Source of the DNA: Caldibacillus debilis DSM 16016
GTDB lineage: Bacteria > Bacillota > Bacilli > Bacillales > Caldibacillaceae
Assembly: GCF_000383875.1 (NCBI RefSeq)
Contig: NZ_KB912902.1
Span: 61,644 to 125,643 of the forward strand
Reading direction: 5' to 3'
DNA: 64,000 nucleotides
Shown here: in pieces, positions 9,692 to 28,753 of the stretch
How positions within the stretch are numbered: position 1 is the stretch's first letter
How the letters are laid out: each line of letters begins with the position of its first letter
Notes under the pieces: generated by a model
The model's input: the letters and a program-made list of their open reading frames with translations, nothing else
Told to the model about the DNA's origin: nothing
The model's database searches: none
Position numbers and translations under genes: made by a program

Positions 9692-12600
9692 TCATTTTTC
9701 CTTTTCCAATTCGATCAGCAAATCCCCCTGTTTTACCGAATCCCCGTTTCCGGCGTGGATTTCTTTCACCGTCCCCGTAAACGGCGCCTGGACGGTGGTT
9801 TCCATTTTCATCGATTCGATGATCAGCAGATGATCCCCTTTGAACACTTTATCGTTTTTGTCGACGAGAACCTTCAAGACGACCCCGGGCATCATGGCGG
9901 CGATATGGCTTTCATTGGCCGGATCGGCTTTGATCCGCTCTTTTACGTCCGTTTGCACGCTTTCGTCTTTCACGACGATTTCCCGGGGCTGGCCGTTCAG
10001 TTCAAAGTAGACGATCCGCGTCCCGTCCTTCTGGGGCTGGCCGATCGATACAAGCTTGACGATCAACGTTTTCCCCTTCTCGATCACCACCTCGATCTCT
10101 TCGCCGATCTTCATCCCGCAGAAGAAGGTCTGGGTGTCCAAAACGGACAAATTGCCGAATTTCTTCAAGCTTTCGGCGTAGTCGAGGAACACCTTCGGAT
10201 ACATGGCATAGGACAGCAAATCCCGCTTTTCCGGCTCCCTGTCGAGGACGGGCCGGAGGGTTTTCTTCACTTCTTCAAAATCGACCGGCTCCAACAGCTC
10301 GCCCGCCCTTTTCGGAAGCGGTTTTTTATCCTTCAATATCGCCTTCTGCAGCTCCTTGGGGAAGCCTCCGGGGGGAATGCCGATATACCCTTGGAAAAAC
10401 TCGACGACCGAATTCGGGAAGTCGAGGGAATCGGCCTTTTCGATGATGTCCTCCTCGTTCAAATCGTTTTGCACCATGAACAGGGCCATATCCCCCACGA
10501 CCTTCGAGGAAGGGGTCACCTTGACGATGTCGCCGAAAAGGAAATTGACCCGTTTATACATATCGAGGATTTCTTCCCAACGGTCGAGGAGCCCGACCGC
10601 CTTGGCCTGCTGCTGCAGATTGCTGTATTGGCCCCCGGGCATCTCGTGATCGTACACTTCCGGATGGGGGGCGAGCATCCCGCTTTCGAAATGGCGGTAA
10701 TATTTCCGCACATCTTCCCAATAATGGGAGATCTGATTCAGGGCTGCCATGGACAGTTTCGGCCTTCGATCCGACCCTTCCAAAGCATACATCAAGGTGT
10801 TGATGCTCGGCTGGGAAGTCAGCCCGGACATGGCATTGATCGCCGTGTCGATGATGTCGACGCCCGCTTCGCAGGCACGGACATACATGTAAATGCCGTT
10901 TCCGCTCGTATCGTGGGTATGGAGATGGATCGGGATGTCCACCGTTTCCTTCAGCTCTGAAATGAGCCGGTAGGCGGCCTCCGGTTTCAACAGCCCGGCC
11001 ATATCTTTGATGGCCAAAATATGGGCGCCCAGGTTCTCCAATTCCTTGGCGAGATCCTTGTAATACCGGATATCGTATTTCGGCCTCGCCGGATCGAGGA
11101 TGTCCCCGGTGTAACAGATGGCCGCTTCGGCAACCTTGCCCGCATCCCGCACCGCTTGAATGGCCACTTCCATTCCCTTTACCCAGTTCAGGCTGTCGAA
11201 GATGCGGAAAATGTCCATGCCCGCTTCCGCGGCATAGGCGATGAATTCCTTGATGACGTTGTCGGGATAATTGGTGTACCCGACCGCGTTGGAACCGCGG
11301 AACAGCATCTGGAAAAGGATGTTGGGGATCTTTTTCCTCAACAGCTGCAGCCGTTCCCACGGATCTTCTTTCAAGAAGCGCAAGGCCACGTCGAAGGTGG
11401 CGCCCCCCCACATCTCCAGCGAAAACAGCTCGGGGAGAAGGACGGCGGTCGGTTCCGCCGCCCGGAGGAGGTCTATCGTCCGGACCCTTGTCGCCAACAG
11501 GGACTGATGGGCATCCCTGAAGGTGGTGTCGGTGATCAGCACTTCCTTTTGCTCTTTTATCCAGCGGACAAGGCCTTCCGGCCCTTCCCGGTCCAGAATT
11601 TGTTTCGTACCGGAAAGCCTGGAGAGGTCCTTTTTCCCGACCTCGGGCACCCGGGGAGGCGGATAGTCCCCCTTCTCCACCTTCCCGATCCCCGGAAACC
11701 CGTTGACCGTCACGTTGGCGATATAGCTGAGCATTTTGTTGCCGCGGTCAAGCCTCTTGGCAAATTCGAACAGCTCCGGCGTCGTGTCCACGAAGGTGGT
11801 GTCGATTTCCCCGGCGAGGAATTTCGGATGCTGGACCACGTTTTCCAAAAAAGGAATGTTCGTCTTGATCCCCCTTATCCGGAATTCTTGTAAATTTCTG
11901 ACCATTTTCGCTACTGCGCTTTCAAAGGTCAATCCCCATGTGGAAAGTTTCAATAAAAGGGAGTCGTAATAAGGGGTGATCACCGCCCCCTGATAGGCGT
12001 TCCCCGTGTCGATCCGCACCCCGAACCCGCCGCCGGTCCGGTACGCGTTGATCCGCCCCGTGTCGGGCAAAAACCCGTTCAGGGGATCTTCCGTCGTGAT
12101 CCGGCACTGGATGGCATAGCCGTTCAGCTTCACGTCCTCTTGGCTGCGGATGCCGATTTTTTCGTTTTTCAACGTGTACCCTTCGGCGATCAGGATCTGC
12201 GCCTGGACGATGTCGATGCCGGTGATGAGCTCAGTGATGGTGTGTTCCACCTGGATGCGCGGATTCACTTCAATGAAGTAAAAATCATTGCCGGAAACGA
12301 GAAATTCCACCGTGCCCGCGTTGGTATAGCCCGTTGAACGCATCAGCCTGACGGCGCTGTCGCAGATCCGCCGGCGGAGCTCCGGGGACAGCTTGACGGC
12401 GGGCGCGATCTCCACGATTTTTTGATGGCGGCGCTGGACGGAACAATCCCTTTCGTACAAATGGACGATGTTGCCGTGCCGGTCGGCCAGAATTTGCACT
12501 TCAATATGCTTCGGTTTCTCCAAATATTTTTCCACATAGACCTCGCCGCTCCCGAAGGCCGACTTGGCTTCGGACTTGGCCCTTTCAAAGGCGTCCTTCA

Positions 12601-13132
12601 ACTCCGATTCGTCCCTGACGATCCGCATCCCCCGGCCGCCGCCGCCCAATGCCGCCTTGATGATGATCGGGTATCCGCAGTCCCGGGCAAAATCCCGGAT
12701 CTCCTCCAACGTCTGCACTTCTTTGCCGGGAACGACGGGAATATTGGCCTTTTCCGCATACTTCCGGGCCTTGACCTTGTCCCCGAAGATTTCGAGCTGC
12801 TCCGGTTCCGGGCCGATAAATAAAATCCCCTCTTCCCGGCAGCGCCTGGCGAATTGGATATTTTCCGACAGGAAGCCGTAGCCGGGATGAATGGCGTCGA
12901 TCTCATTTTCCTTGGCGATTTTGATGATCCCCTCGATATCCAGATAGGCCTCGATCGGTTTTTTCCCTTCGCCGACCAAATAGGCTTCATCCGCCTTGTA
13001 CCGATGGTAGGAACGGGAATCCTCCTTCGAATAGATGGCGACGGTGCGGATGTTCAATTCCGTGCATGCCCGGAAGACCCGGATGGCGATTTCCCCACGG
13101 TTGGCAACCAGGCATTTGTTGATCTTTCTCAT
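9692..13132 (-). CDS. pycA: Pyruvate carboxylase PycA
   Basis: Anaplerotic biotin enzyme converting pyruvate, ATP and bicarbonate to oxaloacetate; 1146 residues, full length. The biotin carboxylase domain covers about residues 1-450 (ALGGGGRGMRIV, EVNPRIQVEHTITE). The carboxyltransferase domain begins near 530 (DTTFRDAHQSLLATR, metal-binding HLHTHDTSGN). The C-terminal carrier domain has IESMKMETT, with the biotinylated lysine near residue 1109. The ATG overlaps the ftsW stop by four bases, so the two genes are likely translationally coupled. No clear terminator follows. Confidence 0.97.
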   Translation of the reverse strand: MRKINKCLVANRGEIAIRVFRACTELNIRTVAIYSKEDSRSYHRYKADEAYLVGEGKKPIEAYLDIEGIIKIAKENEIDAIHPGYGFLSENIQFARRCREEGILFIGPEPEQLEIFGDKVKARKYAEKANIPVVPGKEVQTLEEIRDFARDCGYPIIIKAALGGGGRGMRIVRDESELKDAFERAKSEAKSAFGSGEVYVEKYLEKPKHIEVQILADRHGNIVHLYERDCSVQRRHQKIVEIAPAVKLSPELRRRICDSAVRLMRSTGYTNAGTVEFLVSGNDFYFIEVNPRIQVEHTITELITGIDIVQAQILIAEGYTLKNEKIGIRSQEDVKLNGYAIQCRITTEDPLNGFLPDTGRINAYRTGGGFGVRIDTGNAYQGAVITPYYDSLLLKLSTWGLTFESAVAKMVRNLQEFRIRGIKTNIPFLENVVQHPKFLAGEIDTTFVDTTPELFEFAKRLDRGNKMLSYIANVTVNGFPGIGKVEKGDYPPPRVPEVGKKDLSRLSGTKQILDREGPEGLVRWIKEQKEVLITDTTFRDAHQSLLATRVRTIDLLRAAEPTAVLLPELFSLEMWGGATFDVALRFLKEDPWERLQLLRKKIPNILFQMLFRGSNAVGYTNYPDNVIKEFIAYAAEAGMDIFRIFDSLNWVKGMEVAIQAVRDAGKVAEAAICYTGDILDPARPKYDIRYYKDLAKELENLGAHILAIKDMAGLLKPEAAYRLISELKETVDIPIHLHTHDTSGNGIYMYVRACEAGVDIIDTAINAMSGLTSQPSINTLMYALEGSDRRPKLSMAALNQISHYWEDVRKYYRHFESGMLAPHPEVYDHEMPGGQYSNLQQQAKAVGLLDRWEEILDMYKRVNFLFGDIVKVTPSSKVVGDMALFMVQNDLNEEDIIEKADSLDFPNSVVEFFQGYIGIPPGGFPKELQKAILKDKKPLPKRAGELLEPVDFEEVKKTLRPVLDREPEKRDLLSYAMYPKVFLDYAESLKKFGNLSVLDTQTFFCGMKIGEEIEVVIEKGKTLIVKLVSIGQPQKDGTRIVYFELNGQPREIVVKDESVQTDVKERIKADPANESHIAAMMPGVVLKVLVDKNDKVFKGDHLLIIESMKMETTVQAPFTGTVKEIHAGNGDSVKQGDLLIELEKEK

Positions 13133-14334
13133 CTCCCATACACCCTTTCCCTGAACTTGAAAAGCGATCCCTGTTCTTTCCGCTTTTTGGCATGTTTTCT
13201 TTCATAATTGGTAAACATGGCAACGTTCATCAATATGCCCATGGCCATGCCCAGCATGAGCAGGGATGAACCGCCGTAGCTGACGAAGGGGAGGGTGACC
13301 CCGGTAATCGGGATCAGCCCGGATACCCCGCCCAGGTTGATGAAGGCCTGAATGCCGATCATCCCCGATATCCCGAAGGCAAGCAGGCTGCCGAAAGGAT
13401 CCCGGCAGCGGAGCCCGATGAATATCCCCCGCAAAACGATGTAAGCCAAAGAGCCGATGACAAAAAGGACGCCGAAAACCCCCAATTCTTCCGCGATGAT
13501 CGCCATGATGAAGTCCGTATGGGCTTCCGGCAAATAGCCCAGTTTTTGGATGCTTCTCCCGAGCCCGAGCCCTTTCCATCCGCCGGAGCCGATGGCCAAA
13601 TAGGAGTTGACCAGCTGATGGCCTTCACCCTGTTCATAGGCGAAGGGATCGAGGTATCCGTAAATCCTTCCGAGTCGCTCCTCGGAAAAGATGACATCCC
13701 GTTTCGCCAAAATGATCGGGGAAAAAACGACGGCCAATACCGCAAAAATCATGACGAGCCGGAAAATATTTTTCCATCCCATCCCGGAACAAAAAATGAT
13801 GACGGCGCCGGTAAAGAAGATGATGATGGCCGTTCCGATGTCCGGCTGCACGGCCGTCAAGAAACAGGACAGGATCAAAAAGACGAGCGGCGGAGCCACC
13901 GCCTTGTTAAAATCATGGATATACGACTGTTTTTTCGCATAGACGGCGGCCAAATAGATGATTACCGCCAGCTTGACGAATTCCGAAGGCTGGATGCTTC
14001 TCGTGCCGAGCATGAACCAGCTCTGGGCGTTGTTGACCACATTCCCGAAAAAAAAGAGGCTCAACAAGGCAAACAAAGACAGGAGGACCATCGGGACCAA
14101 AAATTTGTTGCTTTTATACAGCTTGTATGGAACCGCGGCAAAAAGCAAAAACACGAAAAAGGAAAGAAGAAAATTCACTGTTTGTTTGTGAAAAAAATAA
14201 TCGCTTTCTTCCCCGTAAATTTGGACGGCGATGACCATGCTCGAGCTGTAGACCATGACCAGCCCGAAAACCGAAAGGATCAGGTAAACGAACAGGAGCG
14301 AATAATCATAGGATCTGAGGATTTTTTTGACCAT
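13129..14334 (-). CDS. ftsW: SEDS peptidoglycan polymerase FtsW
   Basis: SEDS-family membrane glycosyltransferase of 401 residues with about ten helices, acting in septal cell wall synthesis. Typical motifs are FGLVMVYSSSMV in helix 1, NNAQSWFMLGTRSIQPSEFVKL, MAIIAEELGVFGVL, NLGGVSGLIPITGVTLPFVSYGG and a basic C-terminal tail. It lies directly upstream of pycA, as B. subtilis ftsW (ylaO) does. The ATG start follows AAGGAAA. Confidence 0.94.
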   Translation of the reverse strand: MVKKILRSYDYSLLFVYLILSVFGLVMVYSSSMVIAVQIYGEESDYFFHKQTVNFLLSFFVFLLFAAVPYKLYKSNKFLVPMVLLSLFALLSLFFFGNVVNNAQSWFMLGTRSIQPSEFVKLAVIIYLAAVYAKKQSYIHDFNKAVAPPLVFLILSCFLTAVQPDIGTAIIIFFTGAVIIFCSGMGWKNIFRLVMIFAVLAVVFSPIILAKRDVIFSEERLGRIYGYLDPFAYEQGEGHQLVNSYLAIGSGGWKGLGLGRSIQKLGYLPEAHTDFIMAIIAEELGVFGVLFVIGSLAYIVLRGIFIGLRCRDPFGSLLAFGISGMIGIQAFINLGGVSGLIPITGVTLPFVSYGGSSLLMLGMAMGILMNVAMFTNYERKHAKKRKEQGSLFKFRERVYGR

Positions 14335-14444
14335 TTTCCTTCCTGCCTTTAATTATGTTATACATTTTATCAAAAAATATCAATATAGTATATAACAATT
14401 TAATAAAAAAATAAAAAAGTATGGCACTTTTAAGAAGCTTATAA

Positions 14445-25049: not shown

Positions 25050-25345
25050 CTTTACACCCCACACCCCACCGTTCAACTCCTATGGATTTCATCGGGACGA
25101 AGCGAAAAATGGAAACTTGGACCGGCGCAAACGAAAACGTTTTTGTCGTTCCCGATAATGCCCGGTGCCTGTTTCCCCTGCACCAACCGCCGGCGAACGA
25201 GGACCGGGCGCGACAATGGCCGGGATTTTGCGGCGGCCCTTATCCATTTTTTATGACTGGAAAAAGAAAGGACGAATTGGTATAATTCATTTTGTTTTAC
25301 TTTCAGAGTCCCATTTTATCCCCAGACACCGAGGTGAACATCCCG
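25050..25345. other. Intergenic region upstream of speA
   Basis: Divergent from the DUF3885 pseudogene. It contains the speA promoter listed separately and no other feature that I recognise. Confidence 0.4.
25258..25286 (+). promoter_or_regulatory. Probable speA promoter
   Basis: TGGAAA at 25258 and TATAAT at 25281 are separated by 17 nt. The -10 is extended (TGG just before it). The start codon lies about 60 nt downstream. Confidence 0.55.
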
Positions 25346-26800
25346 TTGAAACAGGAACTCACGCCATTGTTTACAGGGCTCGTTGAGCACATAAAAAGAA
25401 ATCCCGTCCAGTTCCATATTCCCGGCCATAAAAAAGGGTTCGGAATCGAACCGGAATTCCGCAATTTTATCGGAGAGAACGCGTTGTCCATGGACTTGAT
25501 CAATATCGCGCCGTTGGACGATTTGCACCATCCGGAAGGGATCATCAAAGAAGCCCAGGAGCTCGCCGCGGAGGCCTTCGGTGCCGATCACACCTTCTTT
25601 TCCGTGCAGGGGACTTCCGGCGCCATCATGGCGATGATCATGGCGGTTGTCGGTCCGCATGACAAGATCATCGTCCCCCGGAATGTGCATAAATCGGTGA
25701 TGGCGGCCATCGTTTTCTCGGGAGCGACCCCGGTGTTTGTCCATCCCGAAGTCGATCATGAATTCGGCATTTCCCACGGCATTTCCCCCGGCGCCGTGAA
25801 ACGGGCGCTGGAAGAACATCCCGACGCCAAGGCCGTGTTGGTCATCAATCCGACCTATTTCGGGGTTTGCTGCCATTTGCGGCAAATTGTCGACATCGCC
25901 CATTCTTACGGGGTGCCCGTCCTGGTGGACGAGGCCCACGGCGCCCACATCCATTTTCACGAAAGGCTGCCTCTTTCCTCCATGCAGGCGGGTGCGGATA
26001 TGGCCGCAACAAGCGTCCATAAATTGGGCGGATCGATGACGCAAAGTTCGATTTTAAACGTCAAGGAAGGGCTCGTCAATGTCGACCGGGTCCGCGCCGT
26101 CCTAAGCATGCTGACGACCACCTCCACCTCCTACCTGCTCATGGCCTCCTTGGATGCGGCCCGGAAACAGCTGGCCACCCGGGGAAGGGAACTGCTGGAA
26201 AAAACCATCGGCCTGGCCGATTATTTGCGGGAAGAAATCAATAAAATCCCTCCCCTGCGTTGCATGGGCAAGGAAATCTTGGGGAGCGGAGCGGTCCATG
26301 ACTTGGATCCGACCAAGCTGACCATCTGCGTCAAAGACTTGGGAATTTCCGGCCACGATGCGGAAAAATATTTGCGGGAAGCCCATAACATCGAAGTGGA
26401 GCTTTCCGATTTGTACAACGTGCTGTGCATCATCACGTTCGGGGATACAAAAAGGGAAGCGGACCTTTTGATCGAAGCTTTGAAGGACATGGTAAAAACC
26501 TTCCTTCCCCAGGCGGCGAAAAAGGACGTCCAGGTCCTGCTCCCGGAAATACCGAAACTCGCCCTTTCCCCGAGGGAAGCCTTTTACGCGGAAACGGAAG
26601 CCGTCCCCTTTGAAAAATCCGCGGGGCGCATCAGCGCCGAATTCGTCATGGTTTATCCCCCGGGCATCCCGATCTTCATCCCCGGTGAAATGATCACCGA
26701 AGAAAACCTGTACTATATTCAAAAAAATATGGAAGCGGGTCTTCCGGTGCAGGGACCGGAAGACCGGGAACTGAAATGGCTGCGCGTCATAAAAGAATAG
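25346..26800 (+). CDS. speA: Arginine decarboxylase SpeA (Orn/Lys/Arg decarboxylase family)
   Basis: PLP-dependent aspartate-aminotransferase-fold decarboxylase, 484 residues, making agmatine for polyamine synthesis. It tracks B. subtilis SpeA: QFHIPGHKKGFGIEPEF, HTFFSVQGTSGAIMAMIMAV, VDEAHGAHIHFH, and the PLP lysine in AATSVHKLGGSMTQSS. The C terminus has FVMVYPPGIPIFIPGE. I choose TTG 25346 because GAGGTG lies 9 nt upstream and the product then aligns with the B. subtilis start. In B. subtilis speA also lies next to the SR1 RNA gene and pdhD. Confidence 0.94.
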   Translation: MKQELTPLFTGLVEHIKRNPVQFHIPGHKKGFGIEPEFRNFIGENALSMDLINIAPLDDLHHPEGIIKEAQELAAEAFGADHTFFSVQGTSGAIMAMIMAVVGPHDKIIVPRNVHKSVMAAIVFSGATPVFVHPEVDHEFGISHGISPGAVKRALEEHPDAKAVLVINPTYFGVCCHLRQIVDIAHSYGVPVLVDEAHGAHIHFHERLPLSSMQAGADMAATSVHKLGGSMTQSSILNVKEGLVNVDRVRAVLSMLTTTSTSYLLMASLDAARKQLATRGRELLEKTIGLADYLREEINKIPPLRCMGKEILGSGAVHDLDPTKLTICVKDLGISGHDAEKYLREAHNIEVELSDLYNVLCIITFGDTKREADLLIEALKDMVKTFLPQAAKKDVQVLLPEIPKLALSPREAFYAETEAVPFEKSAGRISAEFVMVYPPGIPIFIPGEMITEENLYYIQKNMEAGLPVQGPEDRELKWLRVIKE

Positions 26801-26865
26801 GGTTTGCGTCCGTTGGATAAGCTGGAAGCCCGGCGCCCGGGCGAATTTCCATTCGAAAACAAGAA

Positions 26866-26888
26866 GGGAGCGAACGCTCCCTTTTTTT
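26866..26888. terminator. Terminator shared by speA and SR1
   Basis: GGGAGCG pairs with CGCTCCC around a short loop. The plus strand has a TTTTTTT tail for speA. On the minus strand the tail is TTCTTGTTTTC, weaker but plausible for SR1. Confidence 0.78.
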
Positions 26889-26964
26889 CATCATGCCGCC
26901 TGTTCGGCGTCGTCAGGCGGGCCAAGGAAAGCGGGGCGCTCCCTTGCGGGTCGGCCCTGCCTCC

Positions 26965-27090
26965 TTATTCATCCCCGTCTTCCTCCCCTCGGCAATGGGG
27001 ATGAGGACATTTCCCGTACAGTACGGAAACTTTTTCGTCTTCAAAATACTCGATGGTTGCGTTGCATTCCTGGCAGACAAGAATGCCCAA
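26965..27090 (-). CDS. GapA-binding peptide SR1P
   Basis: Peptide of 41 residues of the SR1P family: it starts MGILVCQECNATIEYFEDEK and continues VSVLYGKC, with two cysteine pairs (CQEC, and C-x4-C in YGKCPHPHC). In B. subtilis SR1P binds glyceraldehyde-3-phosphate dehydrogenase GapA and promotes its interaction with RNase J1. The start is TTG 27090, 6 nt after GGGGTG; it aligns with the family start, whereas the upstream in-frame GTG at 27099 does not. RNase J1 itself (rnjA) is encoded 8.6 kb away in this window. Confidence 0.85.
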   Translation of the reverse strand: MGILVCQECNATIEYFEDEKVSVLYGKCPHPHCRGEEDGDE

Positions 27091-27109
27091 TCCGCTCACC
27101 CCGCAACTA

Positions 27110-27120
27110 AATATGTCATA
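27110..27120 (-). promoter_or_regulatory. CcpN-type operator box A
   Basis: TATGACATATT matches the published CcpN consensus TRTGHYATAYW at every position as I recall it. It lies just downstream of the predicted SR1 start point. Confidence 0.65.
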
Positions 27121-27132
27121 CTAATTGATCTT

Positions 27133-27161
27133 ATAATATAACTAATTGGAAACGTTGTCAA
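27133..27161 (-). promoter_or_regulatory. SR1 promoter
   Basis: TTGACA at 27161-27156 and TATTAT at 27138-27133 on the minus strand, spacer exactly 17 nt. The predicted start is near 27126. Confidence 0.85.
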
Positions 27162-27166
27162 TATAA

Positions 27167-27177
27167 AAAATGTCATA
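27167..27177 (-). promoter_or_regulatory. CcpN-type operator box B
   Basis: TATGACATTTT differs from the CcpN consensus at one position. It sits immediately upstream of the -35 box of SR1. Confidence 0.55.
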
Positions 27178-27186
27178 TTGGTGAAT

Positions 27187-27197
27187 TATGACATATG
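27187..27197 (+). promoter_or_regulatory. CcpN-like box C, opposite orientation
   Basis: TATGACATATG on the plus strand matches the CcpN consensus except the last base. Its start lies 20 nt from the start of box B, about two helical turns. Confidence 0.4.
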
Positions 27198-27289
27198 TAA
27201 CAGGAATTGCGGGGAAACCGGATCACAGCCCACGGCGAAAGGTCCGGCCGGACCGGCGGCCGCCGCCGAGGCGGTGCGGAAACCGGGGA

Positions 27290-27343: not shown

Positions 27344-28753
27344 TTATTTCAAGATATGGATCGGCGATCCTAAAGCGGCTTCCGCGGCTTCCATCGTGAT
27401 TTCGCCGAGGGTCGGATGGGCGTGAATGGTCATGGCGATATCTTCGGCCGTTACCCCCGCTTCGATGGCCAAACCGATTTCGGCGATCATATCGGAAGCG
27501 CCGGGGCCGGCGATTTGCCCGCCGATGACCAAACCGTCTTCCTTCCGGGTGACGAGCTTCAGGAAACCGTCGGAATTGTTCAAGGCAAGGGAACGGCCGT
27601 TGGCCGCAAAGGGGAACTTCCCGACGGTCACTTCAATTCCTTCCGCCTTCGCCTGCTCTTCCGTATAGCCGACGGTGGCCAATTCCGGATCGGAGAAGCA
27701 CACCGCAGGGATAGCCAGGTAGTCGACGGCGGACGGGTGCCCGCTGATCGCTTCCGCGGCCACTTTCCCTTCATAGGATGCCTTATGGGCGAGGGCGGGG
27801 CCGGGGACGATATCGCCGATGGCGTAAATGTTCGGGATGTTTGTGCGGCATTGTTCGTCCACTTTGATCAGGCCTTTGCCGACAAATTCGACGCCGATTT
27901 GTTCCAATCCGATGTCATCCGTGTTCGGGCGTCTGCCGACGGTCACCAGGACGTAATCGGCTTCCACTCTTTCTTCCTTTCCGTCCGCTTCATAGGTGAC
28001 GACGACCCCGTCTTCCTTTTCTTCCACGCCCTTCGCCAAAGCCTTCGTAATGATGGTCGCGCCTTTTTTCTTTAAGTTCTTTTTCACGAGGGCGGACATT
28101 TGTTTTTCAAAGCCGGGCAAAATTTCGTCCGCCCCTTCAATGATGACGATTTCCGTGCCAAAATTGGCGTAGGCGGAGCCGAGTTCCGTGCCGATGTAGC
28201 CCCCGCCGATGATGACCATCTTCTTCGGGATCTCGGGGAGATTCAAGGCGCCGGTCGAATCGAGCACCCGTTTCGAAAACTTGAAGGCGGGCAATTCGAT
28301 CGGCCGTGAACCGGTTGCGATGATGACATTTTTAAAGGTGAAGGTTTGGGCGGAATCGCCGTTGATGACCCGCAGCGTGTTGGCATCGACAAAATAGGCT
28401 TCCCCTTTGACCACTTCCACCTTATTTCCCTTTAACAAGGTGCCTACGCCGCTGGTCAGCCTTTTGACGACACCGGCCTTCCATTCTTGAACCTTGGAAA
28501 AGTCCACCTTCACGTTTTCCGCAAAGATGCCGATGTCACCCGATTCTTTCGCGTCCGCATACTTATGGGCGGCATTGATCAAGGCTTTGGAAGGGATGCA
28601 GCCGACGTTCAAGCAGACGCCGCCGAGTTCCCCCTTTTCGATGACGGTTACCTTTTGGCCGAGCTGGGCCGCGCGGATCGCCGCCACATACCCGCCGGGA
28701 CCGGCCCCGATGACTATGGTGTCCTTTTCAATCGGAAAATCTCCAACTACCAT
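27344..28753 (-). CDS. pdhD: Dihydrolipoamide dehydrogenase PdhD (E3)
   Basis: FAD flavoprotein of 469 residues that reoxidises lipoyl groups of PDH E2. The FAD fold is [20 protein letters not shown]; the redox disulfide is [16 protein letters not shown]; the NAD site is [17 protein letters not shown]. The dimer-interface histidine motif is [26 protein letters not shown] matches the B. subtilis start. It begins 3 nt after the pdhC stop. Confidence 0.97.

Follow-up and report, generated by a model that had tools for sequence, protein, structure and literature searches.

A Caldibacillus debilis SR1/SR1P homologue with a family-specific arrangement of candidate CcpN operators

Introduction

Does the minus-strand intergenic stretch flanked by pdhD and a speA-type gene in Caldibacillus debilis DSM 16016 hold a homologue of SR1, and do its candidate CcpN and CcpA sites lie where those of B. 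subtilis lie? Among the dual-function RNAs of Bacillus, SR1 has been studied best; cells produce it during growth without sugar. Both CcpN and CcpA act as repressors of sr1 in B. subtilis, where the encoded peptide SR1P binds GapA (PMC8464778, PMC8152036), promoting the binding of GapA to RNase J1 (PMC8152036). CcpN acts there from sites directly upstream of the -35 and within the spacer, where it contacts the alpha subunit of RNA polymerase and prevents promoter escape (PMC8464778), and the reported cre lies about 260 bp upstream of psr1 (PMC8464778, PMC7430163).

A first-pass annotation, made from the letters alone, had proposed an SR1/SR1P locus at this place, kept with CcpN-type operators. 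Here we present a computational analysis of that proposal in a window of 64,000 nucleotides (the whole stretch of DNA that was analysed, from whose first letter positions are counted), in the C. debilis genome (3.06 Mb in 40 contigs, 95% complete), and in related genomes of the order.

Materials and methods

We collected 175 SR1P loci, 159 of them with distinct upstream sequence, and 156 were anchored on the promoter. The comparison within the C. debilis family covers seven loci, namely that of the window and six in relatives (L006 and L008-L012). The CcpN weight matrix was built from 277 boxes of species outside this family, and its consensus, AATGTGACATACTAT, fits the CcpN consensus TRTGHYATAYW.

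Results

The 41-codon frame opening at TTG, which the first-pass annotation had assigned to the SR1P family, matches Pfam PF13790 from the first to the last position of the profile (1-37 of 37; E=4.3e-19, 68.9 bits against a cut-off of 26) and carries a CxxC near its N-terminus, and the neighbours pdhD and speA are those expected of an SR1/SR1P locus (Table 1). Its residues C6, C9, E19, K20 and Y25 are as in all 147 distinct relatives; a search of NCBIfam gave the peptide no match. With the SR1P profile, the promoter and the neighbours in agreement, the locus is a real SR1/SR1P homologue and had been read correctly at first pass. As a gene it is ordinary, because SR1P occurs in 325 of 397 genomes and in 118 of the 135 genera of the order, including 7 of 8 genomes of the C. 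debilis family. Homologues had been reported in 139 species, only of Bacillus and Geobacillus (PMC8501984), and the genus names behind that count are probably older and broader. Its TTG start, the only one among the 175 SR1P loci compared, could lower the output of SR1P. A tandem-repeat search found none.

The strong minus-strand promoter proposed at first pass, with TTGACA at 27161-27156, a spacer of 17 nt and TATTAT at 27138-27133, agrees with the sigma-A consensus at 11 of 12 positions. Together with the terminator it predicts an RNA of about 265 nt, close to the earlier estimate of about 260 nt and, as had been said, longer than the 205 nt of B. subtilis SR1. The Rfam search gave zero matches at the gathering threshold; in a relaxed search the SR1 model (RF02376) matched over its full length with 38.6 bits (E=5.8e-6), below its gathering score of 45; B. 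paralicheniformis, by comparison, scores 182.2 bits and B. glycinifermentans 153. The hairpin terminator had been described as shared with speA, and it does lie between the two genes, but its T-tract is clean only in the speA direction and is broken in the SR1 direction (CTTGTTTT).

Table 1. Position, strand and supporting evidence of the features at and around the C. debilis sr1 locus, in window coordinates.
Feature	Position	Strand	Evidence or remark
speA-type Orn/Lys/Arg decarboxylase	25292..26800	+	PF01276, E=1.5e-112; convergent with sr1
Predicted SR1 transcript, about 265 nt	26860..27126	-	Promoter and terminator; Rfam RF02376 match at 26923-27135
Terminator hairpin common to sr1 and speA	26864..26883		Clean T run solely in the speA direction
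SR1P coding sequence, 41 codons, TTG start	26968..27090	-	PF13790; stop codon at 26965-26967
Box I, strong predicted CcpN operator AATATGTCATACTAA	27110..27124	+	19.3 bits; inverted to sr1
Spacer CcpN-like match AATTAGTTATATTAT	27133..27147	-	5.6 bits; close to the conserved register of the spacer box
Sigma-A-type promoter TTGACA-17-TATTAT	27133..27161	-	Consensus scan; aligned with 155 other SR1 promoters
cre-like site TTGGAAACGTTGTCAA over the -35 and spacer	27146..27161	+	Exact match to WTGNAANCGNWNNCWW
Box II, weak CcpN-like box upstream of the -35	27165..27179	-	5.2 bits; near the usual place of the upstream box
Box III, weak inverted CcpN-like box	27185..27199	+	6.3 bits
pdhD, dihydrolipoyl dehydrogenase	27344..28753	-	TIGR01350, E=5.7e-176, over cut-off; upstream of sr1

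Three CcpN-type boxes had been placed around this promoter, and all three were found again: an exact TATGACATA on the minus strand at 27112-27120 (TATGACATATT, a full match to the CcpN consensus), one with a single mismatch at 27169-27177 on the same strand, and an inverted one at 27187-27195 on the plus strand, with the centres of the last two about 20 nt apart. When up to one mismatch is allowed, a search of the window for TATGACATA returns 9 rows where 2.6 are expected; none of 100 shuffles reaches 9, and five of the nine, at three places, fall at the sr1 locus; the TATGACAT boxes at sr1 are more than chance. Under the weight matrix only box I, which reads best on the plus strand, is strong; it has the best score in the 64 kb, and none of 2000 dinucleotide shuffles attains its 19.3 bits. 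If the start point is placed 6-7 nt after the -10, box I spans about +3 to +17. The usual layout, with strong boxes upstream of the -35 and in the spacer, is not that of C. debilis, where these two places score 5.2 and 5.6 bits; to judge from its register, the spacer match AATTAGTTATATTAT is a possible relic of the usual box. The claim that the locus was kept with CcpN-type operators holds for the regulator and fails for the layout, which is unlike the usual arrangement.

How usual that arrangement is can be seen in the 149 loci outside the C. debilis family, of which 140 have a CcpN box of at least 10 bits just upstream of the -35, 136 have one in the spacer and 129 have both. These counts show what the layout is but do not test it independently, since the matrix was trained on these same places. 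The layout agrees with the CcpN site data of B. subtilis (PMC8464778), and it does not strictly define an SR1 locus. Within the family, six of the seven loci have, past the start point, an inverted box of 19.3-23.3 bits, against two weak cases among the 149 others, and in each of the six a box of this kind is reached by only 0-1 of 1000 shuffles; five other members share the place and orientation of box I. Because the family is one lineage, these downstream boxes are one or a few events and not six independent ones. In two relatives, L010 and L011, a spacer box, a downstream box and a distal box occur side by side, which looks, on sequence, like an intermediate state; C. debilis differs from them in having no strong spacer box.

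The third box had been thought a possible local feature. Inverted distal boxes, stronger than that of C. debilis at 14-23 bits, are present in four relatives (L008, L010, L011 and L012), so box III is at least not purely local, and it may be a weak counterpart of theirs; counted in this way, five of the seven family loci have a distal inverted box. The idea that the distal boxes stand in helical phase with the downstream ones was considered and rejected: the spacings of 75, 85, 94, 92 and 94 nt (7.1-9.0 turns of 10.5) are suggestive, and the Rayleigh p of about 0.09, worked by hand on five related loci, is not significant. Box II lies close to where the upstream box is usually found, and box III resembles the distal boxes of relatives, which could be taken to mean that these weak boxes carry most of the control, as in B. 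subtilis, with the downstream box auxiliary and the layout a matter of minor drift. We hold this to be unlikely, as box I scores 19 bits and boxes II and III only 5-6, and box I is moreover the feature common to the family. Box I is our preferred candidate for the main operator, and the operator layout is specific to the family and apparently new in comparison with published descriptions.

For CcpA, the cre match at 27146-27161 was absent from the first-pass annotation. It is the only exact match to WTGNAANCGNWNNCWW in the 64 kb, on both strands, and it covers the -35, in contrast to the B. subtilis cre about 260 bp upstream (PMC8464778). Most relatives have a cre-like element, TWAARCGYTTWCA, at yet another place, in the 5'UTR, starting 6-21 nt after the -10 with a sharp peak in position (for example L044, L054, L076 and L022). 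A loose pattern finds it in 122 of the 156 anchored loci, and 77 of 146 distinct 5'UTRs match WTGNAANCGNWNNCWW with at most one mismatch, where shuffles lead one to expect 2.9. The reviews consulted (PMC8464778, PMC7430163) mention only the upstream cre, and the 5'UTR site is apparently undescribed in the literature consulted. It is absent from all seven family loci, C. debilis included. Since the other family members also lack a cre over the -35, the C. debilis match may be due to chance or may be species-specific. That it is chance, arising partly from the TTGACA hexamer, which supplies part of the match, deserves real weight, for a cre match with at most one mismatch turns up in 0.3-4.5% of local shuffles, depending on the consensus used. 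We lean slightly against chance on the grounds that the match is exact and unique in the window, that CcpA control of B. subtilis sr1 is known (PMC8464778), and that the 5'UTR site is so strongly conserved in most relatives; a functional cre over the -35 is the reading carried forward below.

An SR1 locus under CcpN control calls for the regulator. The first-pass annotation had named the lack of a CcpN gene, like the lack of an SR1P profile match, as refuting, and had asked for a comparison with the promoters of gapB and pckA; both of these conditions came out in its favour. A CcpN-like gene of 211 aa (L001:749-1384) lies directly upstream of a PPPase/YqfL gene, its name being based on this adjacency and on the appearance of the sequence (HTH plus CBS-like) rather than on a profile search. 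Also encoded are CcpA, with a profile score over the cut-off, two GAPDHs (gapB, and a gapA that stands behind a CggR-like gene), ATP-dependent PckA, AhrC, CsrA and arginase. The gapB promoter has a CcpN-type box, AATATGATATACTAA, over its -10 with 19.2 bits, much the same score as that of box I, and in the pckA promoter one box lies at the -10 and another after it, with 12.7 and 11.4 bits. The genome therefore has both the regulator and the other known members of its regulon. The strict CcpN pattern has four exact matches in the genome, two of them being sr1 and gapB. All three promoters have their boxes at the core promoter, but that of sr1 is inverted to its gene and lies wholly past the predicted start point.

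Two further candidates for the regulon were rejected. A far-upstream box at pckA (15.8 bits, L004:3086-3100) consists of AAAATGTCATACTAA, which recurs 7 times in the genome, here and at six other places, and stands here beside a transposase-like ORF; it is probably an insertion-sequence end, and the box upstream of pckA a false CcpN match. The minus-strand promoter of ftsW-pycA (9692-14334, minus strand, encoding pyruvate carboxylase) has three CcpN-like boxes at 14352-14430 (13.9, 11.4 and 10.2 bits), spaced 31-33 nt from centre to centre, and none of 2000 shuffles holds three so good. As a conserved member of the regulon the cluster was set aside, the relatives examined being without it except that L207 has one box and L232 has two.

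Discussion

C. debilis sr1 resembles its B. subtilis counterpart in its neighbours, its sigma-A promoter, its peptide, the presence of both CcpN and CcpA, and its CcpN-type boxes, and it differs in the longer RNA, the TTG start, the strong CcpN box past the start point in place of those upstream of the -35 and in the spacer, and the position of the cre. We consider it likely that the locus works as an SR1/SR1P homologue repressed by CcpN at box I and by CcpA at the cre over the -35, with SR1P acting on GapA; site binding, repression, transcription and GapA binding are read from the gene, its candidate sites, the regulators encoded and the family layout. On glycolytic carbon, CcpN at box I, just past the start point, would block promoter escape or early elongation, while CcpA over the -35 would hinder the entry of RNA polymerase. 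On gluconeogenic carbon both repressors would leave and the RNA of about 265 nt would be made and translated into SR1P, which would bind GapA and shift it to its RNA-degradation role. Rather doubtful, and offered tentatively, is the wider idea that the glucose switch has been rewired to the same output, CcpN having moved from the promoter core to past the start in the family, and CcpA from the 5'UTR to the -35 in C. debilis, so that the two repressors would have traded places. The comparison separates the elements of control that hardly vary within the order, namely a pair of CcpN boxes and, in the 5'UTR, a cre-like site, from the shift in one family. With its moved sites, that family offers a natural experiment on how repressor action depends on position at a single promoter.

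A base-pairing role of the RNA on ahrC mRNA is possible but found no support. The first-pass annotation had proposed predicting this pairing, and the signal was no better than that of random pieces of the window in tests that are crude and GC-biased: the hybrid energy was -39.5 against a background median of -43.1, with 94 of 119 pieces as good or better, and the best accessible 8-nt seed reached -6.3 against -7.0, with 98 of 147. These energies, and a peptide conserved where the match to the RNA model is below threshold, make a serious contender, if the less favoured one, of the view that SR1P is kept only as a small protein gene, its message a small CcpN-regulated mRNA without ahrC pairing and not a dual-function RNA. 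Against it stand the crudeness and GC bias of those tests, the presence of AhrC, CsrA and arginase, and the pairing that Gimpel et al. reportedly found in 2012 to be kept in several species despite diverged sequence. We continue to favour the SR1/SR1P homologue described above.

As for the peptide, C6 and C9 are invariant in all 147 distinct sequences, C28 is present in 134, and a fourth cysteine about three residues later in 129; C. debilis has C6, C9, C28 and C33. The AlphaFold2 model is a small three-stranded sheet (pLDDT 78). Foldseek and structure searches with it gave no significant match; the weak top Foldseek matches were Fur/PerR proteins, with ribosomal proteins further down the list, and some of these proteins are known to bind zinc through cysteines. 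The invariant CxxC with its usual second pair suggests, as a guess, a zinc-binding knuckle. Two genomes stand out for their copy number: in Peribacillus huizhouensis, three near-identical SR1P genes lie within about 1.6 kb of each other on the same strand (L045:1623, 2501 and 3132), and genome G321 has seven SR1P matches.
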